DNA of 64,000 nt from Tricholomella constricta (taxonomy: Eukaryota; Basidiomycota; Agaricomycetes; Agaricales; Lyophyllaceae): the NCBI GenBank assembly GCA_013368375.1, contig JAACJP010000011.1, positions 620,001 through 684,000 of the forward strand. The letters run 5' to 3'. Position numbers and translations under genes: made by a program. The notes under the pieces were generated by a model. The model saw nothing but the letters and a program-made list of their open reading frames with translations, was not told the origin of the DNA and ran no database searches. This document shows, piece by piece, positions 47,309 through 64,000 of the stretch (position 1 is the stretch's first letter; every line of letters begins with the position of its first letter).

Positions 47309-47347
47309 AGCGAGCTGTCCGGCCTTTGTTGAATCATATCTTACGTC

Positions 47348-48976
47348 TTGGAGAATGACGCCATCGCAGTCACCTGGACGATTTTTTCAGCGTCAAAGAT
47401 ATCAGAGCATACCCAGGAGCCCCTGGTCGCGAGCGTGCAGAACGAGACCGAGGCGAGCACAGCGGATGCAGACGAGCATCAGTCTAAGCGCAGCAGCAGC
47501 ACACGGACCCGAGCAGCGGCGATCCGGAAGCAGCGTCGACAAACTCGTATGAGGACACGTAACATCCCAAGGAAAAGGCGCACAAGGAGAGTGGGGGGAA
47601 CAGGCAAGCCCCCCTTGAGGGAAGTGCAGAGCGCTCCACACATTAACACGTCGCAAACCAATACTGACGGACGCGGCGACACAGCAACGACCCCAGCGGC
47701 AACACCGGTGTGCTACATCACCAGCAGCAGTGACACTACAGACATCGGAGCGGACATCACCGTTGACGAGCTGAAAGGCGACGACGGTGGGTTATTCACG
47801 CGTAAGGAAGACCCGTTCAACCCAGCACGCGTGGCGCGGATCCTGAGCAGCGTGAAGGTCGGGGACGATTTGTCCGAAGACGAGCGTGCGCGTATACTGG
47901 CTCTGATCGCGGAGCACGCGGATGTCTTTGCCCTGTCCGTAGGGGAGGTGTTCCCAATAGAAGGAGCGGTGCACAAGTTGAACATACCACCCAATGCTAA
48001 GTTCTCCACCAAGATCCGACAGAAACCGCTCACCCCACCCCAGCGCCAGTACCTTCACGAAAAAATCGACGAAATGATCGCTGCAGGCATCATAGAGGCA
48101 TGCAGCCCTAGTGACGTCAAGTGTGTATCGCCAACCACACTAGCACAGAAAGCCCATCAGGGGGCTGGACTGACATTGGAAGAGCTCCAACACCGAGTAA
48201 ACGAGCAGTGCATTATCAACGGTTTCGATCCACAATTCCAGCTGGCACCGAGGCAGGAACCCACACCGGACGATGAAACCCCTACCACGTCCCCGAAGTG
48301 GAGGATCTGCCAGAACTTCGGGGAGGTGAATAAGGTCACCGTGATTGCGCCGATGCCACAAGGGGACATACGAATGAAGCAACAAAAGCTGAGTGGTCAA
48401 CGTTGGCTGTCACTTTTCGATTTCGCATCGGGGTTCTACGCGGTTGAAATGGCGGAGGAGTCGAAACCCTACACGGCGTTCTACGTCGAAGGGAGGGGTT
48501 ACTTTTGGTATCGACACATGCCCTTTGGGCTGACGGGCGCGCCGTCAACGTTTGCCGACGTAACGGCAGGCAGCTTACACGACCTCATAGTGCAGGGTGT
48601 TATCAAACTCTTCGTCGACGATGGCGGCACGGCAGCCAACGAGTTTGAAGACATGATGAACAAACTGACACAGCTGTTCACCAGGGCACGCGAAAAGAAG
48701 TTGTCAATATCAGCACCGAAGTCTGAATTCTTTGTATCAACGGGGGTATTCGCTGGCGCCTCAGTTGGGAGAGCTGGCGTACAACCCGACCTAACCAAAT
48801 TAACAGCGATCGTCAATTGGAAAGCACCCCAGGACGCGCTGAACCTGGCGGCATTCCTCGGCCTTACAGGATGGTTCCGGGACCTAATCAAAGGGTACGC
48901 GAGGGTAGAGAAACCGTTACGAGACCTGCTTCGTGACGTAGAGATGCCTCCGGGCTGCTCGAAGTCGGTATACCGC
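47348..48976 (+). pseudogene. Gypsy element A, pol part 1: RT domain, 5'-truncated and interrupted
   Basis: The frame starts without an LTR or gag. After an Arg-rich spacer it carries a Ty3/Gypsy reverse transcriptase: LSEDERARILALIAEHADVF, TKIRQKPLTPPQRQYLHEKI, KWRICQNFGEVNKVT, SLFDFASGFYAVEM (first Asp), YRHMPFGLTGAPSTFADVT, the active-site box LFVDDGG (FVDD in place of YVDD) and AAFLGLTGWFRDLIKGYA. It stops only because element B begins at 48977: the codon CGC (48974-48976) is followed by TGA made by the LTR start. The rest of pol lies at 61942 onward in a matching frame. The left junction, about 47340, has no visible LTR end. Confidence 0.9.
48973..48976. other. Target-site duplication, left copy (CCGC)
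   Basis: CCGC precedes the 5' LTR and recurs at 61938-61941 after the 3' LTR. If the LTR end is taken as CTATC the duplication would be five bases (ACCGC). Both copies lie in element A's pol. Confidence 0.85.
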
Positions 48977-50043
48977 TGATGAGCACCGTCCCGCGCTGTA
49001 CACAGAACCTGCCCATAATACGGACAACAACCGCTGCGCCACGACGAACACGGTCCCGGATGCGACCAAAGCACCGAACCGACCGACCGACAATACGACC
49101 GACCGACAATACGACCGACCGACCAACAATACGACCAAACGACCGACGCACCGACCAAGAAACAGAGTAACTTGAAACGCCAGTTCTCCTCTCTGGGCGC
49201 ACGGAGCACGGAACGCCGTATAACCTGTCCACGACCGCGCACGTTTGTGTGCCAAGGTCTCAACCCGGCGACAACCAAACCCGATTTGAAATTATCATCG
49301 GAAACACCTTTGCCCAGCCATTCGCAGAGAGGATCCGGCCGTACCACGGAGTTCCGCACCCAAGAGCCACTAACCGATCGCAAAGCCACCACCGATCATA
49401 CATCCGACCCGACACCGCGAGCTGATCAAAAGCCCCTTTGCCGAGCCAAAGAGCGCCACACTCTCTAAAAAGCGTCGCGCGGTACCAAGCTTGGCGGCGC
49501 TTCTCACAATAAACTAGTAAAACACCTGCCTCACCGGCTCGCGAGAGGCGAGTCGGTCGCATAGTATAAAAACATACCCATGTACTACCTACCTGGGCCA
49601 GTGAATTACAGCCCGTATTTTCCCTCACACTCAGAGTGAATAGCTCGAAACCGTCGTCTCTGTCGTCTCTGCACCGTCCTCATCGTACAAACCGTCACCA
49701 CTGTCGTAAATCTCGTAACTGCCGTCTCTGCCGCCTCGTACTCGTCGCCCGAACCCGTGAGTTCTCCGTATTAACCTCGTCCGTCTCGTTGTCGCACGAC
49801 CAACACCCAAAGTCGCGTCGCCGACCCGTTCCACTCGGGAACGTCGTGTTCCATCGCCCCCGTCGCGTTGTTGTCGGTTCGGCTAGCTGCGAGTCGGATC
49901 GTCTTTACTTTCACCAAACCACCACTTTCAAACCCTGCACACTCGCGTGTTTGGGAACTTTTAACATTTCTCGCCCCCCCCCCCCATAGTTGTTAGTTGT
50001 TTTGTTGTTGTGCACAGTACCTACAGGCCTTCTAGCTCTATCA
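48977..50043 (+). repeat. 5' LTR of element B
   Basis: 1067 bp, TG...CA. It contains a CGACCGACCGACAATA-type tandem stretch (about 49076-49145), a TATAAAAA box at 49565-49572, and a C-run near its end. Compared with the 3' LTR it has one extra copy of the CGACCGA tandem unit and a longer C-run. Open frames on both strands here are not genes. Confidence 0.93.
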
Positions 50044-50046
50044 TTC

Positions 50047-50063
50047 TGGAGCCCACCGCGAGG
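50047..50063 (+). other. Primer-binding site of element B
   Basis: TGGAGCCCACCGCGAGG starts three bases after the 5' LTR. TGG pairs with a tRNA CCA end, and the rest would pair with an acceptor and T-arm ending ...CCTCGCGGTGGGCT. I cannot name the tRNA. Confidence 0.65.
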
Positions 50064-50528
50064 GTTTTAAAAGCCACCGCCGAACACGCAACCTCATTCC
50101 TCTTGTTCATAAAAACCTACGACTCGTCGACCATTCCGCCCGCAACCCGACAAGAAGCTAAAGCCCGAACCCTCCGTGCCGAAATTCGCGCTGCTCTCGG
50201 ACAAGCCGACACCGACTCAGAATCGCTCTCCCCGTTCTTCCGCTCAGTAACCCCACACCGCGCGATCCATAACAACCTCAGTCCGCTCTTCTATAGCCCT
50301 TCGTCGACACTACCGTCGCCTACCCCGACCGATCAAACACCGATCCCCGAACCAACCGCGCAACCCGACCTAGCTTTCGACCCCTTTGCGTCGGAACCTC
50401 CTACCACCGATCAAGGAGTTGAATTTAGACTCCCCTATCTATCGCCCGCGACCCCAGAAATCTCAGATTCTTCTTCACCGTCGTATTCCCCCTCCCCGTC
50501 CCCTATCCCGAAACCAATACCATCTAGC

Positions 50529-52832
50529 ATGGCACAACCACCAATCATTATAAAGCCGATGCCCGCACGTGGACAAAGCTCGGCGCCGACGTTTGTGCCC
50601 GAACGCGCGCGTGAACTGCGCCGATATTTCTCGGACTTAAATCATCTCTTCATCGAGTGTAACGTCGTAGATGAACAAGAGAAGAAAACGCACACTACGC
50701 GATACACCGACATCGATACCGCGGATCTGTGGGAGCAACTTGACGAGTTCGCAGTCGGTACCACATATGACGATTGGCGAAAAGCGATAATGGCGCTTTA
50801 CCCAGGCGCAAGCGAAGAAAGAAAGTATTCAATGGCCGACCTCGACTACCTGATCAGAGAACGACACCGACTCGGGATCCAGTCGAATAGTGACCTCGGG
50901 GAATATTACCGACAGTTCCTTTCGGTTACCCAGTTCCTTGTCAGCAAAAACCGACTTTCGATAAACGAACGCGACCGCCAATTCCGTCGCGCATTCCAGT
51001 CCGATCTATGGTCAAAGATCCATCGCAGGCTCAAGATCCTAAACCCGAACCACCATCCCGACGACCCCTACGCCACGGAAACCGTTCGAGCTGCGGCCGA
51101 ACATATCCTCCACGGAACAAACGCCGGCCAACGACAGGAAGCGCCATCAGGCGCGCCCACACAAATTACAATCGCGCCAAGCGGGTCGTTAATGGGCGCG
51201 ACCAAGTCGCCTAGCACGGGACAGCCCCTTAAGTTGGAAGAGCTCTACGAAAGAATCAACCTGTTGGAACAACATATCCAACGCTTAGGACAAGACAAAG
51301 GAGGCGACGGCGGCCGACCGAATCAGTCACCTAATGACAACTGCCACTTCTGCGGTGGTGAAGGACACTATATTCCTAACTGTCCCATACATCAAACATA
51401 CGCGACCGAAGGACGCTGCCGACGAACCGACGACAACAAGATAGGCCTACCAAGCGGCGCGCGCATACCGGCGGGAACTCCAGGTCGATACATAAAAGAC
51501 AAGTTAGACGAGTGGCACAGACGCAACCCCGGCCAAATGGCGACAGGACAGCTATCAGCGAATGCGAACCTGACCAAAAGCATGATGTTGGAAATACTAC
51601 AGTTTAACGACGTCACCGACCATGACCTGAAAATCGAGGATCGCATGATCGTGTTGGAACGAGAACTCAACACCCTGCGCGCAAGGAAAGAGGTGTTCGA
51701 CGGCGTAGAACTTATTAGCCGCGCACCGCAAAAACGACCCGTCACGGTCGAAACCGTCCCAGACGCCGACCAACCAAGGATCGCACCAGTCAGCAAGTCA
51801 GCGCCCGCGTCGCAGCCCGCCTCGGATGCGACGAAAGGCCAAGCCAAGGCTCCCCCGCCACCGTCCAACATACCTCTGATCCCCAGTACCAAGACCGACG
51901 CCACAGGCAATGCCCGCGACCAGACTCCAGTACACCCTTTCTCTAACATTCCTGAGAACCGATACATCCCCCCTACCACGCGAAACTTAGCCGCCACGGA
52001 GAAGGCGAAAGCCGACAGTGCGTACCGCACACAAGCGCCCATTACAGATCCAACCAAATCAACGACTCTATTCGAACGCGCACTCGACGCCACCATACCG
52101 GTCACAGTTCGAGAACTCTGCGGGGTAGCGCCAGAGGTTCGCGGAAAGTTTAGGGAAGCTAATACACCGAAGCGTATCATCGCCGGCAACCTCACAACGG
52201 TATACCAAGAAGTCCCCACGTCGGCGTTCATTGAGGAACTCGACGCACTACCTTGCGAATCCAACAACGACAACGCGACACCACCGCCCGGAGCGCTAGT
52301 CACCGGCGACATCTACGACACGTATTACCAGACACTACTACCTGGCGAGCATCCGGACCGACTGATCGTCGCAATGGAATCGCATGCACTCAGATCGATC
52401 ATGATAATGGTCGACGCGAGAGAACAGATAGAAAGCATCGTCGACAGCGGGTGCCAGATCATAGCCATGTCGGAAGAAGTTTGCCATGGACTAGGGGTCA
52501 AATACGACCCAACTATAGTGCTGCAGATGCAATCAGCAAACGGAACAACCGACCCGTCGCTCGGTCTAGCACGAAACGTACCTTGTACGATAGGAGAGGT
52601 CACGCTCTACCTCCAAATGCACGTCATTCGCAATCCTGCATACGATATACTCCTCGGCCGCCCGTTCGACGTACTTACTTGCTCTAACGTGAAAACGAGA
52701 TCCGCCGACGATACGATCATAACCATCACCGACCCGAACACCCGAGAGGTCATCGCGATACCGACCTTCGCGCGCGGACAACGTCGCTGCCCCAAGACCG
52801 ACGTAAATTTTCGTATACTCTCGAGGAAATAA
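50529..52832 (+). CDS. Element B Gag-protease
   Basis: The first in-frame ATG is at 50529, giving 767 residues; the same frame is open back to about 50010 with no ATG, a Pro/Ser-rich stretch that may be untranslated. The capsid part has ARELRRYFSDLNHLFIECNV, TADLWEQLDEFAVGTTYDDW and LGEYYRQFLSVTQFL, with a LEELYERINLLEQHIQRL coiled coil. The zinc knuckle CHFCGGEGHYIPNC (CX2CX4HX4C) follows at about residue 276. The C-terminal part has a retropepsin-like protease with IVDSGCQIIAMS and DILLGRPFDVL, so Gag and protease share one frame. It ends at TAA 52830-52832, 19 nt after a slippery site that leads into pol. No internal stop is present. Confidence 0.93.
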   Translation: MAQPPIIIKPMPARGQSSAPTFVPERARELRRYFSDLNHLFIECNVVDEQEKKTHTTRYTDIDTADLWEQLDEFAVGTTYDDWRKAIMALYPGASEERKYSMADLDYLIRERHRLGIQSNSDLGEYYRQFLSVTQFLVSKNRLSINERDRQFRRAFQSDLWSKIHRRLKILNPNHHPDDPYATETVRAAAEHILHGTNAGQRQEAPSGAPTQITIAPSGSLMGATKSPSTGQPLKLEELYERINLLEQHIQRLGQDKGGDGGRPNQSPNDNCHFCGGEGHYIPNCPIHQTYATEGRCRRTDDNKIGLPSGARIPAGTPGRYIKDKLDEWHRRNPGQMATGQLSANANLTKSMMLEILQFNDVTDHDLKIEDRMIVLERELNTLRARKEVFDGVELISRAPQKRPVTVETVPDADQPRIAPVSKSAPASQPASDATKGQAKAPPPPSNIPLIPSTKTDATGNARDQTPVHPFSNIPENRYIPPTTRNLAATEKAKADSAYRTQAPITDPTKSTTLFERALDATIPVTVRELCGVAPEVRGKFREANTPKRIIAGNLTTVYQEVPTSAFIEELDALPCESNNDNATPPPGALVTGDIYDTYYQTLLPGEHPDRLIVAMESHALRSIMIMVDAREQIESIVDSGCQIIAMSEEVCHGLGVKYDPTIVLQMQSANGTTDPSLGLARNVPCTIGEVTLYLQMHVIRNPAYDILLGRPFDVLTCSNVKTRSADDTIITITDPNTREVIAIPTFARGQRRCPKTDVNFRILSRK

Positions 52833-52867
52833 GTCGAGATCACGGCGATCTTGCACTCCTCCTCGAG
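52805..52867 (+). promoter_or_regulatory. -1 programmed ribosomal frameshift signal (slippery site + stem)
   Basis: AAATTTT at 52805-52811 reads A AAT TTT in the gag frame, the canonical X XXY YYZ heptamer. An 8-nt spacer follows, then a perfect 8-bp stem: CTCGAGGA (52820-52827) with TCCTCGAG (52860-52867), loop 32 nt. Shifting back one base enters the pol frame, which is open from here without a stop until 54644. The gag stop lies inside the loop. Confidence 0.85.
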
Positions 52868-55800
52868 TACGACCCACTAAGCTATACCCCGACTGTCCTT
52901 TCTTTCTGTGAACTACCGACCGAATTTAATAGCGACGCCACCTACGACGCGCAACTAGCCTCACTCTACGTCGCGGCAGCCGAACTAACCACACCAGCAA
53001 TCGCTGACCAATCCGTTAATACCAGCTCTACCCCTCTTGAACGAACGACCCTCTGCACTATTTTACCAAACAACGAGCGCCATAGTGGACGCCACACCCA
53101 AACTCTGACCAACGCCGCCACAGACACCTTCGTTGTCAAAATCAAAGGCGTACAAACCAAAAAGAAGTACAAACCAGTGGCACAAAAAGTACGATCGATC
53201 GTAGCAAGTTGTCCCGACCACTTCTGCATCGAGCGCAAAATATTGGGCGACCCTCTCGCCGACATGCCGACTCTGCTCCCCAACCCGCCACCTTTCCAAC
53301 CCACCGGCCGCTACACTCTAGAGCGAAAAGACGACTTAGACCGTGAACACCCAGACTTCTTAACGCCCTCCGAACGAGCAATTATGCACGACCTCATGTG
53401 TAAGCAGAATCTCGCTTTCGCATGGGACGATTCCGAACGCGGTAGTTTTCGATCGGATTTCTTTCCCCCTATCGATATCCCGGTCGTCGCACACACACCC
53501 TGGATCGAACGAAACATCCCCATACCGCCTGGCATCTACGATGAAGTTTGCGACATTATCAAAACTAAACTCGCCGCCGGCGTTTACGAACCGTCCAACT
53601 CCAGCTACCGATCGCGTTGGTTTTGCACTCTAAAGAAAAATGGCAAGTTCCGCCTCGTCCACAGCCTCGAACCGCTCAACCGAGTAACCATCCGACACTC
53701 GGGTGTCACTCCGATACCAGACCATGTCGCCGAACAATTCGCCGGTCGCATTTGTGGCGCAATGTTAGACCTGTTCGTCGGCTACGACGAACGGCTAATC
53801 GCACCATCGTCGCGCGACCTTACGACTTTCCAAACACCTTTCGGCGCGTTACGCCTAGTCACCTTACCTATGGGCTGGACCAACTCCGTCCCAATCTTCC
53901 ACGACGACGTCACTCACATCCTGCAACCGGAGATCCCGGACTATACACTGCCTTATATCGATGACGCTGCTATAAAGGGACCAACAACTTGGTACCCCGA
54001 CCCGGATACAGGATTGCCGAAAACACACCCCGACAATGCCGACGTACGATTCGCGATCTGGGAGTTCCTCAACAACGTCAACCGAATCCTCCAGCGCATG
54101 AAGTACTGCGGCGGCACCTTCTCCGGCAAGAAGCTGATTTTATGCGCACCACAATTTAAAGTCTTCGGACACGTCTGCACGCCCAATGGTCGCATACCCG
54201 ACGCGGACCGACTCGCGTTACTGCGTAATTGGAAGTCGTGCGCCACCCTATCAGAGTTACGCGCGTTTTTAGGAACGGTCGGAGTACTAAGGATATTCGT
54301 CAAAAACTTTGCTCATCGCGCACACCACCTCGTAAAACTAACCCGCAAGGATGCAGTCTTCGAGTTCGGCCCCGACCAGATCGCAGCGCAGCGTGACATC
54401 GTTGAGGCAATCGCAGAAGCGAAACCCCTCGTACCCATCGACTACGCCTCGGACGACCCCGTCATCCTGGCCGTCGACACTTCCCACATAGCAGTCGGAT
54501 TCTACCTCTGTCAAGCCGACCCCGTCGATCGGAAACAACGCAGATACAATCGGTTCGGTTCCATTACACTGAACGACCGCGAATCACGGTTCTCTCAACC
54601 AAAACTCGAATTTTACGGCCTATTTCAGGCGCTTGGCGCTTTATGACTGTACGTTATAGGCGTCCGCAACTTGGTCGTCGAAGTCGACGCGCGCTACATT
54701 AAAGGAATGCTCTCCAACCCCGACATCCAGCCGTCAGCTTCCATAAACAGGTGGATCGTATCTGTCCTCATGTTCCACTTCGAACTTGTCCATGTTAAAG
54801 GCACGTTCCATGGACCCGACGGTTTGTCCCGGCGCCCACGACAACCCGACGATCCAGCCGACAACTATGACGCAGAAGAAGCCGACTTCGAAGATTGGGT
54901 CGACCGGATGCAAGGACTCATGCACATTATTCAACCGCTGCCACAGCCGCCGTCGCCATTACATGTGTGCCAGATCTTCGCTATGGCTCAGGTCTCAAGT
55001 AAGGAGGAGATGGTGGCAGTATACACGGATGCGGTACCACCAGACTCAACGACTCACGAACTCGCAACCGATTCCCCACGACAACCCAGAATCCGTACCG
55101 ACAACGACACAGGAATAACCGACCCAAATGCGAATTCGACCGACATGTCATACGACGACGTGCCCAGGACCGACGCCGCTAAAGCCCAAGACCAACGCAT
55201 AGATGCGGTTAGACAATGGTTGACCAACCTCGAACGGCCAGAAGGCATGTCCGACGATCAGTACACCACCTTCATCCGATACGCCACCGGGTTCTTCCTA
55301 GACGGAACACGACTCTGGAGAAGAGATAGCCAAGGCGCACATAAACTAGTCGCCTGCCCCAACGCACGACTAGAGATTCTGCGATCCGTCCACGACAACC
55401 TCGGACACAAGCGCTTCTACGCAACACGCGCAACCTTGCTTGAACGCTTCTGGTGGCCTAATGTTCGGGCCGACGTCGTGTGGTTCGTACAGACATGTCA
55501 CATATGCCAGATCCAGCAAACGACCAAGGTCCTGATCCCCCCGGTCGTTGCGACACCCGCGCCACTGTTTGCAAAAATGTACATCGACACTATGCACCTA
55601 CCGCCGTCGAATGGTTTCAAATACATTGTCCAAGGTCGTTGCTCCTTGATTCACTTTCCTGAATGGCGCGCGCTCCGAAAGGAAAACAGTCGCACCCTCG
55701 GCGATTGGATGTATGAAGACATCATCTGCCGGTGGGGCGGACTGCGCGAAATCGTAACCGACAACGGTCCAGCCTTCATCAAAGCCGCTGAACACCTCAC

Positions 55801-56575
55801 AAAGAAATACCACATACACAACATTCGGATCTCAGGTTATAACTCCAGAGCCAACGGACTCGTCGAGCGGTCCCATTTCGACGTTCGACAGTCCCTTTTC
55901 AAAGCCGCCGACGGAAACGAAAGCAAATGGTCGCAATCAGCTTATACGGTTTTCTGGGCCGAACGGGTCACAATCCGCAAACGAATGGGATGCTCCCCCT
56001 ACTACGCCGCGACAGGTACTCAACCCCTTCTGCCGCTCGATATCGTTGAAGCCACGTACCTCCAACCGCCACCCGACTCTATCCTGTCCTCCACCGACCT
56101 CTTGACGCGACGCGCGATCGCCTTACAAAAACGAACGACCGACCTAGAGCGACTACATTCAGACGTATACGCGGCGCGAAGACAAGCGGCGATTCGCTTT
56201 GAACTTAAACACGCCAGAACCTTGCGCGACTATAACTTTAAACGCGGAGACCTCATCCTGATGCGCAACACGAAAATCGAGAAGTCGCTCAACCGCAAAA
56301 TGCGATCTAGATACCTAGGACCGCTCGTCGTGATCGCGCGAAACCGCGGGGGCGCCTACATCCTCTGCGAACTGGACGGCACCGTCTTACACCGACCTGT
56401 AGCAGCGTTCAGACTCGCGCCCTACTTCGCGCGAAACAACATCCTCCTACCCGACAGCGCTCTGGACATAGACACCAAGCGACTCAGAGAACTGGAAGCA
56501 ACAACAATCACCGACGACGAAGACCGACCCGAAGTCGTAGACGACGACTCCGAATCGGAAGACGAGCAAAACTAG
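52812..56575 (+). pseudogene. Element B pol: RT, RNase H, integrase, one nonsense codon
   Basis: The frame is continuous from the frameshift site to 56575 apart from TGA at 54644-54646. RT motifs: RSRWFCTLKKNGKFRLVHSL, AMLDLFVGYDE, TFQTPFGALRLVTLPMGWTN and the active site YIDDAA (53954-53971). RNase H starts VILAVDTSHIAVGFYLCQ. The stop falls in RNase H between FQALGAL and LYVIGVRNLVVEVD; Arg is usual there, so CGA to TGA is likely. Integrase has the zinc-binding segment HDNLGHKRF...CHICQ and the catalytic D (MYIDTMHLP), D (IVTDNGPAF) and E (GLVERSHFD). An acidic tail ends it; no chromodomain is evident. Apart from the stop it looks complete, about 1250 codons. Confidence 0.92.
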
Positions 56576-56922
56576 CCGCTCAACCTCCGACTACCCGTAT
56601 ACCCCTTTTTTTTTTAATGATATTTCGACATCTATCCCTCTCCGGTTTCTACTTAAACGTCCCACGACCCGACCATTCGCGAAGTCCAACACCCCGAACG
56701 ACAGTTTTTCCTTTCGTTCTTTTAACCCCCACTCAATTTTCAGGATTACACACACTTAATACCTGACTCCGCAGGAAAACAACACAGCGTATATTACATT
56801 TTAGCCCATTTTACGGGCTCCGACAGGTATACATACTAAACAGAAAAACGCGACGCCTCTAGTGGAGGAACGAAGCGGCCACGACACCAAGAAACCCGAA
56901 CACAACCGACAACCACCGGCAT

Positions 56923-59038
56923 CTACCCTTCAAACCCCGAGTCGCCTCTCCACTCCTCGTCATCGCCCTCTTCGTCGGTCTCTTCTGCCTCCTCTTCCGA
57001 ATCCGCGTCGTCGTCGCTCTCCGAAAAATCGACCCCGTCCGCTCGCATCAACTCGGCGCATCGCCGACGGAGCGCAGTGATCGCGCTTGCCGTTCCGGCG
57101 AATTGCTCGCGCACCCGAATGAGGCTCCAGCGGGCGATCTCCTGCCGCGATTCCCAGAGATGCAGCTCTTGGATTAACGACCGCAACAGTGCGTTGCGCG
57201 ACATTAGAGCCCGGTCGATGTCAGCCAGGGGAAGTGAGGCGACACGCGACAGATCAGTGGCGTAGCCTAAGCCATCCAGATCACGGTTGCGCGGAAGGCT
57301 GGTCCCACGGGGTACACGACCGCCGTGGACGAAGCTAGCGCCCATGCCGGACTCCTCAGCGGCGTATTGTGCGGACTGGAGGGCACCTGCGGTCGGCCCG
57401 TAGTCGTCGTCGCTGAGCACAGTTAGGTCGCGCGCTCGACGACGAGCGACAGAGGGCGACGCGGCCTCCGCATCTTCCTCGGAGTCCTCCACGACGGACT
57501 TGGAGGCGACGCGACGACGACTTCGGTGACGCGAATCCTTGACGACCGACGCGCCGGGCTTGTACTTAACCGTCTCGCACCGTTTAGAAAAAATCTTGCA
57601 TCGCGCGCAGATTCCGCCCTCAGGTTTCTGAAAGCAATCAACGGCGGCGTCTGCGCAGCGATCACACTACAACGCCGTCAGAATACGACCGACCCGACGA
57701 AGCACGCGACGACGTACCGGCTCGTCGCGAACGAAGTGGTTCGGATGGGCGACTTTGAATTCCTCAAGTCGCTCCAACCACTTGAAATCCGCAGCGGCCT
57801 TCCGGGCAGCAGTAGTCTGTCGCGCTTCTTGGCCACCGCTGTCCCCTTCTTCTCAGACGCCTTCCCAAACTTGGCCGCCCCGGACGCTTTCTCTACCTTG
57901 ACTGCCAATTCCACTGCCTCGGCCGCGGACCCCTCACCTTCGTCGGCGACAGCACGCTTCCGCTTACGGCTAGAGGACGCTGGCGCTGTGTCGATGAGGA
58001 CGATAGGCGACCCACCTACTGGAAGTGTTAGAGGAAGCCCGTCGGACGGACTGAAGGCGACGCCCGAACCGAGCACGAACTCACCCGTGGTACCGACTTT
58101 CGGACGACTACCTCCGGCCGACATGTGGGGCAGGGTAACCGGACGGTACTCGGGGTCGTGCACGCTCGATACCTTAGCCCTCGTTTTGGCCTTTGCCTTG
58201 GCAGGAGCGGAAGCGGCGCGCGGTGCAGAGGATCCCTGATCAAGCATGACGAAGTCGGGCGACCGAGGAGAACGCGACATGAGAGGGTCCCGCATCGGCT
58301 CCAGAACTTCCCGCCCCATTCGCTCTGCCATCGCCGCGACCCTAGCCGCCTCCGACCCTTGCACGAAATCCGCTATGGTCTGGGTGTCCTTGCCAGTAGT
58401 ACCAACGACGTCGCCCTCCGCTGCACCCGGCCCCGGAAGGGGGGTGGTGTTACCGACGGTAGTACTGGGCGGAGCGGCGCTGCCAGCCGTCGCGGGAGCC
58501 TCTACCGTAGGGGCCGTCGAACTCAGTGCCGACACAGCCACAGCCGTCGTCTCAGCGCCAGGCATAGACAGACCCAGACCCGTAAGTGGGGCCGCCACAC
58601 TTGTCGACGCTAACGGGTCCTCGGGCGCCACCGATTGCGACGCGCGTATGTTGGCCGCTGCACCCAAGCGTATACGACGCTCGTGTCGCCGGCGCGCGTT
58701 CTCACTCTGGGAAGGCTGGATGAGTTGACCACCCACAGACCAGTCAAAGCAACTGAACAACGCCGCACCTCAGGTTCTAGCCCACCGAATGGCCCCTTCC
58801 ACTCAGCATCCCCCCCTATGACGGACCAGACAGCCCGCAATGCAGGCTCCTCATCAGCCCACACCCAACGCGGTCCCTGGCCCTCCTGGGCACGTAGCGC
58901 CGTCACTCCCTGTAGCAGCCCCTCAAGTATGGCGAGGCGTGCTTGGCGCGGCGCATCATCGGGCAGCGCTCGCCAGTTGTCCCAATCACCCTGGAGGTCC
59001 TCGAGAATGAGCCCGTAGTTCGGGGGCAGGTCAGCCAT
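56923..59038 (-). CDS. Antisense gene 1 in element B: six-cysteine (Zn2Cys6-like) protein
   Basis: Read against pol, it starts at 59038 (MADLPPNYGLILEDLQGDWD). Exon 1 has DWDNWRALPDDAPRQARLAI and PRWVWADEEPALRAVWSVIG, ending at LEPE before a 62-nt intron. A long Ala/Ser/Pro-rich exon follows (about 58690-57720) with the basic SSRKRKRAV patch. A segment LERLEEFKVAHPNHFVRDEP is in another frame from that exon, so an unseen intron or a frameshift lies near 57830. After a last intron comes CDRCADAAVDC...CARCKIFSKRC (57666-57577), exact CX2CX6CX8CX2CX6C spacing. The C-terminal part has DLDGLGYATDLSRVASLPLA, DIDRALMSRNALLRSLIQEL and an acidic tail; stop at 56923. It is paralogous to the gene at 59435-60731. 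A nuclear DNA-binding role is inferred from the cysteine spacing only. Confidence 0.7.
57577..57666 (-). other. Zn2Cys6-like motif of antisense gene 1
   Basis: Six cysteines spaced CX2CX6CX8CX2CX6C, within the consensus for fungal binuclear zinc clusters. The basic residues usual between cysteines 2 and 3 are missing (ADAAVD), so DNA binding of the classical kind is uncertain. Confidence 0.75.
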
Positions 59039-59185
59039 GCCTGCCGACGTGTGAGAGAAAACAAAAAGAGGGAACCGAGGAAGCCTGAGGGCCTTGCAAA
59101 CATGACGCGCCGTCAAATTCAGTTGCACCGCCACCGCCGTCACACGCCACACACGCGTCAATTCTAAAAATTTCTGGCAAACCAG

Positions 59186-59233
59186 ACTCCGGGCCGACTG
59201 GGGACAGCCGGCATTTCAAGTAAAGAGGAGACA
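59186..59233 (+). repeat. Internal copy of the polypurine-tract region
   Basis: GACTGGGGACAGCCGGCATT, then TCAAGTAAAGAGGAGA, matches the segment directly before the 3' LTR (about 60853-60891) with only a few changes. Here it is followed by non-LTR sequence. It lies about 190 bp upstream of antisense gene 1. Confidence 0.88.
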
Positions 59234-59434
59234 TGACCTACAGATGGAGCGACCCGACACCACCGACAACAAAACCGACCGACACGACGAACCGACCTGC
59301 GACCTGCGCCACTTAAGGAAGCTCGAATTATAAAGAACGACCCAATTTTAGGGCCCGAACAACAAAATAGGTATATACGGAATACGCGACCGATAACGAA
59401 CACAACCCGACCGCAAAACACAAGAAACCCGAAG

Positions 59435-60731
59435 TCAAGGCGACAAACCCTCGCCACTATCGTCGCGTACGCCACCGCCGACACCGCGTCCACTGCCGCT
59501 GCCCCCACTCCTTGAATTACCCATCGCAGACGCGCCAACTAACTCTGCGTGCCGGGCCTGAAGCAAGTCAAGGGCCGACGACGTAGACACGACCTGCTCG
59601 TAAAGCTGACGGGATGACGAACGCATGACCTCTTGGCGCGATTCAAGGACTTGAATTTCCTGGACCAAAGTACGCAAGAAAACGGTGCGCGCCGAAAGCG
59701 CCCGATCTACATCGGCAAGACCGAACCGCGAAATAACCGACAACGGCTGGGTGAAGCCCAAACCACGCAAATCTTCGTTACGAAGGAAGTCCTCAGGGCG
59801 AAACACCGGACCCTGATAAAGGAGACCCGCACCCCGGTCTACCGAATCCGCAGAACGAGTCACGACAAGGCGCTGGGGGGCCCTCGCCAGATCGGGCAAA
59901 CGGACCTCGTCGAACAGCGGAGGGGGCATACACGTGTCGCAAAAGTGTCCCACTACTGAGCACGACACAAACTGGTGCGGAGCTGGCCGAAACGACCCCA
60001 CCTCGTTCGTCTTGCACCGTCTAGATTGAATCTCGCAAACCGCGCAAACGTCAATGTCGCTGCGCTGAATGCAGTCCAAGCCGTAGCTCACACAACGATC
60101 GCACTAGCCAATAAATGAACGAAAGAACAAGGACACAAGAGGACCGACGACTTACCGCTTCGCTACGAGTGTAATGCTCAGGGTACTCCTTCTTAAATTC
60201 CTCGAGACGTGCCAGCCACAAACGGTGTCGCATCCCTTGTGCCGCCAATACCGACTCCCCGGAGATCTCGACGACAGACTCTTCTTCGTCCCTGTCCCCA
60301 ACAGAGGAAGCGCACGAACGCTCCCGAACGACAGGCCCTGCCGCTCCTTCAGCAAAGGCGGCGCGCGTACGGGCGACCGTCTCTCGGGGAGGGTAATCGG
60401 ACTACCAACTAGCGCGTTAGTACTCTGCAGAAACGACCAAATAACCAGCAAGCGAACGCACACTCGGTTCTAGGTCCGCGAACCGCTCGGACCATTCGGG
60501 GTCGGACTCGATCGTAGACCATATGTTAGACAATGCCTCTTCCTCGTCGCCCCACATCCAACGCCAGGGACTAGCCACCGGCGACCTCAGCACTTCGAGG
60601 CTGTTCGACAAGTATTGTAGCACACGGGTGCGCGCGTAACGAGGGGAGTCGGCCGACAGCGACTGCCATTCGTCCCAGTCTCGTTCCAAGAAGCGGAGAG
60701 TGCGCTGAAGATCGACAGGAGGTCTCGACAT
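59435..60731 (-). CDS. Antisense gene 2 in element B: paralogue of antisense gene 1
   Basis: It starts at 60731 (MSRPPVDLQRTLRFLERDWD); an upstream in-frame ATG at 60824 is possible. Exon 1 has ERDWDEWQSLSADSPRYART and WRWMWGDEEEALSNIWSTIE, ending near LEPS at an intron with a strong ACTAAC branch point. The next exon is shorter than in gene 1 and ends with LWLARLEEFKKEYPEHYTRS then GTAAGT. The last exon begins CDRCVSYGLDC...CAVCEIQSRRC (60103-60014), the same CX2CX6CX8CX2CX6C spacing. It continues with DLRGLGFTQPLSVISRFGLA, DVDRALSARTVFLRTLVQEI and a Gly/Ser tail; stop TGA at 59435-59437. N-terminal block, cysteine motif and C-terminal helices all match gene 1 in order. It lacks most of gene 1's Ala/Pro-rich middle. 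Its start is about 160 bp inside the 3' LTR edge. Confidence 0.72.
60014..60103 (-). other. Zn2Cys6-like motif of antisense gene 2
   Basis: CX2CX6CX8CX2CX6C, spacing identical to the motif at 57577-57666. Residues between differ (VSYGLD, IQRSDIDV), yet both begin CDRC and end in (R/K)RC. Confidence 0.75.
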
Positions 60732-60877
60732 AACGATGGGTAAACCAATCAAGAACCTGAGTATATATAGGTCGCCAGCGCGTCGGCACCGCCACTTCCT
60801 CCTACCCCTGCCCCTCTTTTCCAAGACGAACGCCCCCTGACCGATGCACGGGACCGACTGAGGACAGTCGGTATTTC

Positions 60878-60891
60878 AAGTAAAGAGGAGA
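60878..60891 (+). other. Polypurine tract of element B
   Basis: AAGTAAAGAGGAGA directly abuts the 3' LTR start (TGATGAG, 60892), the expected place for plus-strand priming. Confidence 0.85.
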
Positions 60892-61937
60892 TGATGAGCA
60901 CCGTCCCGCGCTGTACACAGAACCTGCCCATAATACGGACAACAACCGCTGCGCCATGACGAACACGGTCCCGGATGCGACCAAAGCACCGAACCGACCG
61001 ACCGACAATACGACCGACCGACCGACAATACGACCAAACGACCGACGCACCGACCAAGAAACAGAGTAACTTGAAACGCCAGTTCTCCTCTCTGGGCGCA
61101 CGGAGCACGGAACGCCGTATAACCTGTCAACGACCGCGCACGTTTGTGTGCCAAGGTCTCAACCCGGCGACAACCAAACCCGATTTGAAATTATCATCGG
61201 AAACACCTTTGCCCAGCCATTCGCAGAGAGGATCCGGCCGTACCACGGAGTTCCGCACCCAAGAGCCACTAACCGATCGCAAAGCCACCACCGATCATAC
61301 ATCCGACCCGACACCGCGAGCCGATCAAAAGCCCCTTTGCCGAGCCAAAGAGCGCCACACTCTCTAAAAAGCGTCGCGCGGTACCAAGCTTGGCGGCGCT
61401 TCTCACAATAAACTAGTAAAACACCTGCCTCACCGGCTCGCGAGAGGCGAGTCGGTCGCATAGTATAAAAACATACCCTATGTACTACCTACCTGGGCCA
61501 GTGAATTACAGCCCGTATTTTCCCTCACACTCAGAGTGAATAGCTCGAAACCGTCGTCTCTGTCGTCTCTGCACCGTCCTCATCGTACAAACCGTCGCCA
61601 CTGTCATAAATCTCGTAACTGCCGTCTCTGCCGCCTCGTACTCGTCGCCCGAACCCGTGAGTTCTCCATATTAACCTCGTCCGTCTCGTTGTCGCACGAC
61701 CGACACCCAAAGTCGCGTCGCCGACCCGTTCCACTCGGGAACGTCGTGTTCCATCGCCCCCGTCGCGTTGTTGTCGGTTCGGCTAGCTGCGAGTCGGATC
61801 GTCTCTTACCTTCGTCAAACAACCCTTACAAGCCCTGCACACTCGCGTGTTTGGGAACTTTTAACATTTCTCGCCCCCCATAGTTGTTAGTTGTTTTGTT
61901 GTTGTGCACAGCACCTACAGGCCTTCTAGCGCTATCA
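60892..61937 (+). repeat. 3' LTR of element B
   Basis: 1046 bp, TG...CA, nearly identical to 48977-50043. TATAAAAA is at 61464-61471. Differences from the 5' LTR are clustered around 61804-61835, in the CGACCGA tandem units, and in the C-run. Confidence 0.93.
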
Positions 61938-64000
61938 CCGCAGGGTAATGTCTGGCTGGACACTCCCTGACAGATGGACACAGGCGCACGAGAAGGCCTT
62001 CTTGGAACTCAAACGGCTACTGACATCCGAACCGGTGCTCCGAGCGCCAAAATGGGACGGCACTCACTTTATAATCACCAGTGACGGGTGCCAAGACGCG
62101 TTCGGAGCCGTGCTCGCGCAGAAATTCACGACAGAGCTGCCTGGGGGGAAGAGTGTTACCAAGCTGCACCCGCTGGGATTCGCATCGAAACGAACCTCGC
62201 GGGCCGAAGGGAAGTACAAGCCCTTCCTACTAGAATTTGCTGCGCTGAAGTTCGCACTCGACAAGTTTTCCGATGTCGTATGGGGCTTCCCCGTAGAAGT
62301 GGTGACAGACTGCCAAGCACTGAGAGACGTCCTCACCAACGACAAGCTCAGCGCTACACACGCGCGCTGGCGAGACGGGATACTAGCGCACCAGATCGTG
62401 GACGTACGCCACGTCCCTGGACGCACAAATGTTGTCGCAGACGGCCTCAGTCGAGTTGCGGAGGGCACACCAAATACACCAGGGGATGGAAGTGATTGGA
62501 CGGTCAGCGAAGACTGGGAAGCGGTAACGGGCCTTGTCCATGACATCTTCATGGTGGCTGGTATCTCAGACGCCGACGCGCTAGTCCATCGTTTCGCAGA
62601 TGAACCAATGTTCAAGGAGGTCGTCGAGTCCCTGCGCGAACTGGACGAAGGGACAACAACGCGGGAACGAAGACGAGCTAAACACCGTGCCATGGACTAT
62701 ATGATAGATGGAGATCGACTATACAAGGTCGGAGGGGGACCCAAAGCGCGAGCGAGAGCACGAGTGGAGTGCGTCACACGCGGCGAAGCCATCGAGATGG
62801 CGCGGGCAGAACATCGGAAAGGAGGGCACTGGGGACGGGACGCGATCAAGAGGAGGCTAATGGATACGATATGGAGCCCAGGCCTCGACGCATCCATCAT
62901 GGAAGGCATCAAGGACTGTGGAAAATGCAAGAACTTCGGGGGTACGCACCTCCACTCTCTGCTGAACCCAATAACGCGCAGACACCCCTTCGAGCTCCTG
63001 GTCGGCGATTACCTCTCCTTACCGGCAGGAACAGGGGGTTTCCAAATGGTCGGCCTTTACCTCGACACGTATTCCCAACACGTGTGGGGCCACAAGTTCA
63101 AGACAGCTGGAACGGCGAAAACCACGATCAGCTCGCTAGAGCGCATCTTCCAGGACTTCGCGCCGTCGGAAGCGCTCATGGTCGACGGGGGAAGACACTT
63201 CGACAACAAAGACGTACGGGAGTTTTGCGGGAAGTGGGGAACGGAGACACATGTCGTTCCGGCCTATTCACCATGGGTGAATGGGCTGGTAGAAGGTACA
63301 AACAAGATATTGCTTCACGTCTTGAAACGACTCTGCGCTCCAGACCTAGATGAAGCCGAGTATGACGCCATGTCGATAGCAGACCTTCCAAAGACATGGC
63401 CCAAATACTTGGACGAGGCGATCCGAATCCTCAACTGGAGGATGCTCCCGGCGTTCCACCACACGCCAAAGGAACTGCTACTCGGACTCGTCGTGGGCAC
63501 ACCGAAATCAAGCACCGAGGATAGCACATCAGTGCTGAAAACAGACGACGTCAACGTGCAGCTCGCATACGCTGCGCAACAACGGCTGGATGGCTACGCT
63601 GCCGTGGTGCACCATGCCGTGAAACGGAAAGTGGCTTTCGACAGGAGTCTTAACAGAAACAAGCAGGGAAATAACATTCCGACGAGGGCAACTGGTACAG
63701 ATCTACCGCAGCGACCTTGACTATACCTTCAAAACCGAACGCAAGCTCCTCCCAAAGTGGTCCACACCCCACCGCATCAGGGAATGCGTGGTCAACTCCT
63801 ACACACTCGAAACACTCGACAGAACTGCGCTGAACAGGAGGTTCAGCGCAAGGTGGCTGCGCGAGTTCACAGCACGGAAAGGGACGGAGTTGGCGCGCGC
63901 ACAAGCAGAGCTGATGAAACGAGTCGAGAAGGAGGAACTGGAGGCACGGAGGGCCGAGGAGGAATCGGTCGAGAGGGAAAGGGAGAAGGAGAAGGACGAG
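61938..64000 (+). pseudogene. Gypsy element A, pol part 2: RNase H and integrase (runs off the window)
   Basis: The first four bases are the right target copy. From 61942 the frame continues element A's pol: RNase H with HFIITSDGCQDAFGAVLAQK, LLEFAALKFALDKFSDVVW and VVADGLSRV. Integrase follows with HRKGGHWGRDAI...CGKCKNFGG, catalytic D (ELLVGDYLSLP), D (ALMVDGGRHFDN) and E (NGLVEGTNK). At about 63666-63668, in a run of three G, the reading shifts by one base: the integrase C-terminal segment (EITFRRGQLVQIYRSDLDYT) is in a new frame. It then stays open to the window edge, ending in a Glu/Lys/Arg-rich helix. The shift looks like one extra G. With the missing 5' end, this copy is dead. Confidence 0.88.

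Follow-up and report, generated by a model that had tools for sequence, protein, structure and literature searches.

Paralogous, spliced antisense genes under purifying selection between pol and the 3′ long terminal repeat of a Gypsy-type retrotransposon family in Tricholomella constricta

We analyzed a 64,000-nt stretch of the Tricholomella constricta genome (Agaricales, Lyophyllaceae; contig JAACJP010000011.1, positions 620,001–684,000), hereafter the window, and searched the 44.1-Mb assembly of this fungus (GCA_013368375.1). The window contains a Gypsy-type element of 12,961 bp (48977..61937) bounded by long terminal repeats (LTRs), with gag-protease and pol on the plus strand. Between pol and the 3′ LTR lie two paralogous genes, A and B, which are antisense to pol and possess three exons each. 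Comparison of copies indicates that both are protein-coding and under purifying selection, weaker than that on pol. Most family copies that we could place have them in this position, and each is preceded by a block composed of a palindrome and a polypurine stretch. A minus-strand, intron-containing pair at this position in an element of 12.96 kb had been described in an earlier note made from the window sequence; its coordinates, strand, exons and three common blocks were confirmed, as was the element size. We tentatively propose that A and B are self-encoded nuclear accessory regulators that may act through the palindrome–polypurine block.

Both genes encode DWD.W and W.W.DEE, the cysteine motif CX2CX6CX8CX2CX6C starting with CDRC, and D(I/V)DRAL, and their two introns occupy common positions, after the N-terminal domain and directly before CDRC. 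In gene A, exon 1 (58769..59038, minus strand like all antisense features below) encodes the N-terminal domain of 90 amino acids (aa). Exon 2 (57718..58715) encodes a variable linker with an RKRKR nuclear-localization-like stretch; in the window copy its frame is broken and its 5′ edge is uncertain by 9 nt. Intron 2 (57667..57717, 51 nt, GT...AG) leads directly into the CDRC of exon 3 (56923..57666), which continues with a linker, a long helix containing D-I-D-R-A-L, and an acidic tail. Gene B is intact in the window and has a product of 394 aa and introns of 60 and 52 nt. Its exon 1 (60462..60731) encodes a 90-aa N-terminal domain, 40% identical to that of gene A, exon 2 lies at 60156..60401, and exon 3 (59435..60103) carries the CDRC motif, a linker and the long helix with D-V-D-R-A-L. 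A TATA-like stretch is present ahead of gene B, where TATATATA is located at 60762..60769 (minus strand), upstream of the ATG. The open reading frame (ORF) is uninterrupted, at 657–667 aa, in 11 of 16 distinct whole A-type copies of gene A (a 17th, C19, is cut by the locus end and stands outside the 16), and in 16 of 18 distinct copies of gene B. The GT...AG splice ends of these copy-wise models are given by construction, and modeling of the read copies yielded no full gene model for five copies of type A′ or for the genes of a related locus, L035 (both introduced below).

The distribution of the pair was assessed from the reverse transcriptase (RT) region of pol (52688–54646), which was assigned by its place and a YIDD-type motif. 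The genome search with this region gave at least 75 matches, with 73 of 790 first-look candidates scored, and the placement count used 73 of the 75 rows after omission of two second pieces. A homologous antisense exon 3 was found 1.5–9 kb away on the opposite strand in 60 of the 73 placed copies, among the matches listed. The exon-3 search counted at least 188 genome matches, and from the rows listed 151 entries were classed by hand, by identity and length and with fragments merged. Among the matches listed, a B-type partner lies at the expected distance and on the expected strand for 66 of the 81 A-type entries, which leaves 15 A-type entries without one; of the 69 B-type entries, 3 are partnerless. 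Thirteen RT-region copies have no antisense match within 1.5–9 kb; for C47 and C5 the genes lie farther off, at C72 and C42 the contig ends, and in L030 and L033 pol is interrupted by other sequence. Twenty copies were read across 10 kb, and exons of both genes were present in 16 of them; L023 has gene A only, L017 a fragment, and L030 and L033 no antisense gene exons. A diverged family (C7, about 88% identical in the RT region) likewise bears two antisense genes, at L035. The genes are thus not missing from related elements, a point that the earlier note had singled out for checking.

Selection was estimated from the ratio of nonsynonymous to synonymous divergence (dN/dS), computed pairwise between copies, with whole-gene pairs kept at dS > 0.03; the pairs are not independent. 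The median was 0.22 for gene A (range 0.20–0.27; 45 of 55 pairs above the dS threshold) and 0.27 for gene B (range 0.20–0.50; 107 of 120 pairs), and dN was lower than dS in every such whole-gene pair of either gene. The integrase gave a median of 0.06 (85 of 91 pairs) with outliers up to 0.89 and dS up to 2.08, in a set in which 2 of 14 rows contain a stop. By exon, median dN/dS in gene A was 0.14 for each of exons 1 and 3 and 0.33 for exon 2, the linker. Because the ratios are well below 1, they indicate that A and B are selected as proteins, under purifying selection that is weaker than that acting on pol. Values near 1, for which the earlier note had advised a check, did not occur at the whole-gene level, and its view of the genes as element-encoded is borne out by this selection together with their recurrence at the same place.

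Each gene is associated with its own copy of the block, which reads CTCCTCCTTACTTGAAAT-R-CCGACTG-N4-CAGTCGG along the antisense genes, with small variations. The internal block (59194..59230, minus strand) consists of a palindrome with one mismatch (59194–59211) and a polypurine-tract-like part (59213–59230); the start codon of gene A follows 155 nt downstream of it. The LTR-side block (60854..60890, minus strand) consists of a perfect palindrome, CCGACTG-N4-CAGTCGG (60854–60871), and the polypurine tract on the plus strand (60878–60890). It lies one base before the 3′ LTR, and the start codon of gene B follows 122 nt downstream of it. The polypurine tract of the element, AAGTAAAGAGGAG, is the first part of this LTR-side block. 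Upstream regions of types A, A′, B, Ax and Bx have the block 105–155 nt ahead of the ATG in 33 of 35 cases, and in the other two LTR sequence occupies its place. Across 154 pairs of A-side and B-side blocks the palindrome is 97% and the polypurine part 91% identical, whereas the adjoining 20-nt windows are only 23% and 39% identical. The genome contains 109 matches to CCGACTGNNCNCAGTCGG and none to the reversed control, and 70 of 100 listed sites form 35 same-strand pairs, 1,527–1,753 bp apart. Because the blocks are conserved where their flanks are not, and recur as pairs, a gene-plus-block unit was probably duplicated long ago with both blocks kept.

The N-terminal domain of gene B is modeled as five helices with a mean predicted local distance difference test score (pLDDT) of 91.2, and it returned no fold match at E ≤ 0.001 and no family match over threshold. 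All six cysteines of the motif are invariant in 16 aligned exon-3 sequences. The exon-3 model contains one 67-residue helix (residues 129–195), with 10-residue pLDDT means of 74–96 before the helix end, which in this model could be suited to pairing. An RKRKR or KRKR stretch occurs in gene A, in A′ of L027, L032 and L036, and in Ax, and L025 has RKHKR. A protein-database search with an exon-3 profile had a sole match, T. constricta D9615_010527 (P0001). Its public gene model splices onto CDRC at the acceptor that we had predicted from L035, and around CDRC the protein matches that locus almost letter for letter. D9615_010527 fuses DUF6534-type sequence with the cysteine exon of the Ax gene (L035:4047–4646), which is probably a gene-model fusion, or else a host–element chimera.

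Gene A is far more diverse than its surroundings. By exon-3 identity there are at least four types of gene A (A, A′, A2 and Ax) and two of gene B (B and Bx). Among the matches listed, A2 pairs with B in 7 cases and with Bx in 5, A2 and its Bx partners being classed by identity alone. Read from the frames, A′ seems to possess an extra intron in its middle region. Between L019 and L025 the first 1.2 kb of the RT region is 99–100% identical, gene B 79–88%, LTR windows 87–94%, and gene A 47–59%. A second pair, L021 and L027, shows a dS of 0.00 over 604 codons of the RT region, 0.28 in the integrase and 0.42 in exon 3 of gene B. For exon 3 of gene A in the same pair dS is about 1.9 (proportion of synonymous differences, pS, 0.69), near synonymous saturation. 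Gene A diverges between elements far beyond the surrounding pol and gene B, and since synonymous divergence is so unequal along one element, it is most likely a module exchanged by recombination between elements.

The remainder of the element in the window was annotated by LTR alignment, ORFs and Pfam. The 5′ LTR (48977..50043, TG...CA) and the 3′ LTR (60892..61937), both on the plus strand, are identical at 1020 of 1045 aligned bases, and CCGC is found at either edge of the element. Both LTRs hold a ACCGACCGACCGACAATACG tandem array (49078–49147 and 60993–61046), and ACCGACCGACCGACAATACG includes the CCGAC of the palindrome half-site. The gag-protease ORF (49965..52832, plus strand) spans 955 aa from stop to stop and matches aspartyl protease above and zinc knuckle under the Pfam cut-off. 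Pol (52688..56575, plus strand) lies in a different frame; the two ORFs overlap at 52688–52832, as with programmed frameshift. Pol matches the integrase zinc domain above cut-off and RNaseH-like domains just under it. Its RT region is unmatched by Pfam RVT_1, although that of the outer neighboring element matches, and we regard the RT of the 12,961-bp element as unusually divergent on this profile comparison. The Gypsy label is based on domain order and RNaseH families. The window copy of pol has an in-frame stop at 54644–54646, and many relatives keep a 1295-aa open frame. The whole element is nested inside the pol of another Gypsy element (47333–48979 and 61930–63720), separating its RT from RNaseH-integrase.

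The explanation that we tentatively prefer, with somewhat less than even confidence, is that A and B are self-encoded nuclear accessory regulators acting through the block. The two genes would be transcribed toward pol from their own promoters, situated between block and ATG, and their spliced antisense mRNAs would yield nuclear proteins in which the long C-terminal helix mediates pairing. These proteins may be guided to the palindrome beside the polypurine tract and the 3′ LTR by their cysteine motif and basic residues. A and B would then control how strongly they are themselves expressed and how sense transcription is balanced against antisense transcription, by analogy with HBZ of human T-cell leukemia virus type 1 (HTLV-1); adaptation to host factors or to competing elements would fall to the divergent linker of gene A. 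The antisense orientation of the genes accounts for the persistence of their introns, because splicing of the antisense mRNA leaves them in the sense genomic RNA, the strand that is reverse-transcribed. The suggestion of the earlier note that the pair may control LTR transcription or counter silencing is supported as regards element-encoded, selected genes; neither activity is established.

A number of observations weigh against this explanation, and the first concern the cysteine motif. Zn2Cys6 clusters follow the spacing rule CX2CX6CX5-12CX2CX6-8C, which CX2CX6CX8CX2CX6C fits, and as in Gal4-type regulators a long helix comes after the motif. In A and B, however, the motif is central rather than N-terminal, and the cut-off of Pfam Zn_clus (PF00172) is not reached, with matches in 3 of 16 members and a best E of 0.034. 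The same profile has 22 matches above cut-off over the genome, none at the exon-3 places listed. Canonical Gal4-type clusters touch DNA through basic residues between the second and third cysteine. No basic residues were found there in A and B, which have loops of the ADAAVD or VSYALD type; they sit in the second half of the motif instead (CKIFSKRC or CEIQSRRC). Since the spacing fits but the Pfam model is unreached and the basic residues lie in the second half, we use the label "Zn2Cys6-like" only. Membership of the motif in the Zn2Cys6 family is not established, so that the earlier note's six-cysteine claim stands for the spacing and not for a DNA-binding identity. One motif cysteine is lost in the otherwise intact gene B of L022, outside the 16-row alignment, and gene A of L003/L034 (one element) has CGRC. 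The LTR-side antisense gene of L035 (1298–2268) shows no cysteine exon, while keeping the N-terminal domain and the D-V-D-R-A-L helix. Overall, exon 3 is modeled poorly (mean pLDDT 59.5, predicted template modeling score 0.30), and in gene B exon 2 taken alone dN equals or exceeds dS in 2 of 113 pairs. Other points concern the block. It is nearly identical for every gene A type examined, which does not suit DNA recognition as the seat of gene A specificity. Its internal copy may owe its conservation to a role as a second priming site, or to homogenization by exchange; in C28 one palindrome variant is common to both blocks (135036 and 136680), a hint that the two blocks of one element exchange sequence. 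Finally, palindrome variants that preserve G-U pairing number 10 for the antisense-strand RNA and 1 for the sense RNA, from few independent events, counted at sites preceded by ACTTGAAAT (104 and 95 matches, 94 exact ones common to both). This bias hints at an RNA hairpin rather than a protein site.

It is possible, though on the doubtful side, that A and B are instead accessories of the retrotransposition cycle, which travel with the pre-integration complex and help with entry into the nucleus, with priming of the plus strand at both polypurine blocks, or with selection of the target. This would suit the nuclear-localization-like stretch of gene A and the association of both genes with polypurine tracts, of which one adjoins the 3′ LTR and the other is internal. 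On the other hand, many Gypsy elements move without such genes, the N-terminal domain matches no fold or family over threshold, and conservation covers the palindrome, beyond the polypurine part. Comparable roles have been suggested by reviewers for plant antisense ORFs, in the accessible text of PMC7264820. We consider it rather unlikely that the pair forms a modular identity or immunity-like system, with gene B and the block constant and gene A an exchangeable specificity module. A rarer gene A type would then escape repression by resident copies or the host, comparable to temperate phage immunity regions, and recombination during reverse transcription would swap the gene A module while pol stays nearly identical.

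A role as counter-silencing factors, which block RNA-based or chromatin silencing by the host and whose gene A types diverge with a changing host target, appears unlikely. The linker exon does have the highest dN/dS of gene A, and deep gene A types are kept beside near-identical pol, but selection is purifying overall and not diversifying, gene B is less split into types, and likeness to any known suppressor was not found. Very unlikely, in our estimate, is that antisense transcription or the RNA itself matters, as double-stranded RNA or a block hairpin, with the proteins secondary: the G-U variant bias favors pairing of the antisense-strand RNA, yet dN/dS well below 1 points to selection on the proteins. 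The chance of a one-off capture of host sequence or of chance open frames is negligible and was ruled out for the A–B pair by dN/dS and genome recurrence, since the broken frame of the window's own gene A and the partnerless entries, where a related host gene is possible, are set against recurrence in most placed copies and two introns at positions common to both genes.

Antisense genes between pol and the 3′ LTR are an already known class. In plant LTR elements the aORF-3R class comprises Grande gene23, RIRE2, Retand ORF4 and PvRetro13; these ORFs are conserved and present in most copies of a family, with an own promoter in Grande (PMC7264820, accessible text). Their function is not known according to the accessible text of PMC7264820, PMC8365987 and PMC4227169. 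Like them, A and B occupy the interval from pol to the 3′ LTR in antisense orientation, occur in most copies of the family and encode conserved proteins. They differ in that there are two paralogous genes, both interrupted by introns and both encoding a six-cysteine motif, in the deep types of gene A and in the duplication of the palindrome–polypurine block. Among fungi, Boty of Botrytis cinerea carries the antisense gene brtn between pol and the 3′ LTR (Zhao et al. 2011, as cited in the accessible text of PMC7264820, PMC8365987 and PMC4227169). It is likewise a fungal LTR element with an antisense gene at the same place, but from an ascomycete and referred to there as a single gene; the likeness is one of description, not of protein sequence. 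Additional ORFs to which no function is assigned have also been noted in a survey of Gypsy elements from fungal genomes (PMC2864245); they are comparable to A and B by description only, and the words "antisense" and "opposite" were not found in the accessible text of that survey. Our literature search, which covered few subscription papers, found no duplicated, spliced, cysteine-motif antisense pair in fungi. The earlier note's statement that no such cassette was known in a fungal LTR element thus agrees with what we found in print as regards duplication, while brtn is a precedent for a single fungal antisense gene. HBZ of HTLV-1 is the product of an antisense transcript that starts in the 3′ LTR, and it inhibits Tax-driven LTR activity (PMC3185765, accessible text). 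HBZ and the APH proteins of these viruses resemble A and B as products of antisense retroelement genes, being nuclear regulators where A and B are putative ones; HBZ differs as a basic leucine zipper protein of a retrovirus, and we claim no sequence relation.

What is new here is that the antisense genes form a duplicated, spliced pair, that gene A resembles a module, and that the polypurine–palindrome block is present twice. Antisense accessory genes of LTR retrotransposons have been known without their function, and this family provides many divergent, selected copies in a single genome. Because it also offers two paralogs, modules that differ naturally between copies, and a defined site as a candidate target, function becomes directly testable. 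Two questions are opened: whether the proteins act on the block, and whether mutual regulation among copies depends on their gene A type. If our proposal is true, A and B would be a cellular retroelement counterpart to the antisense regulators of complex retroviruses.

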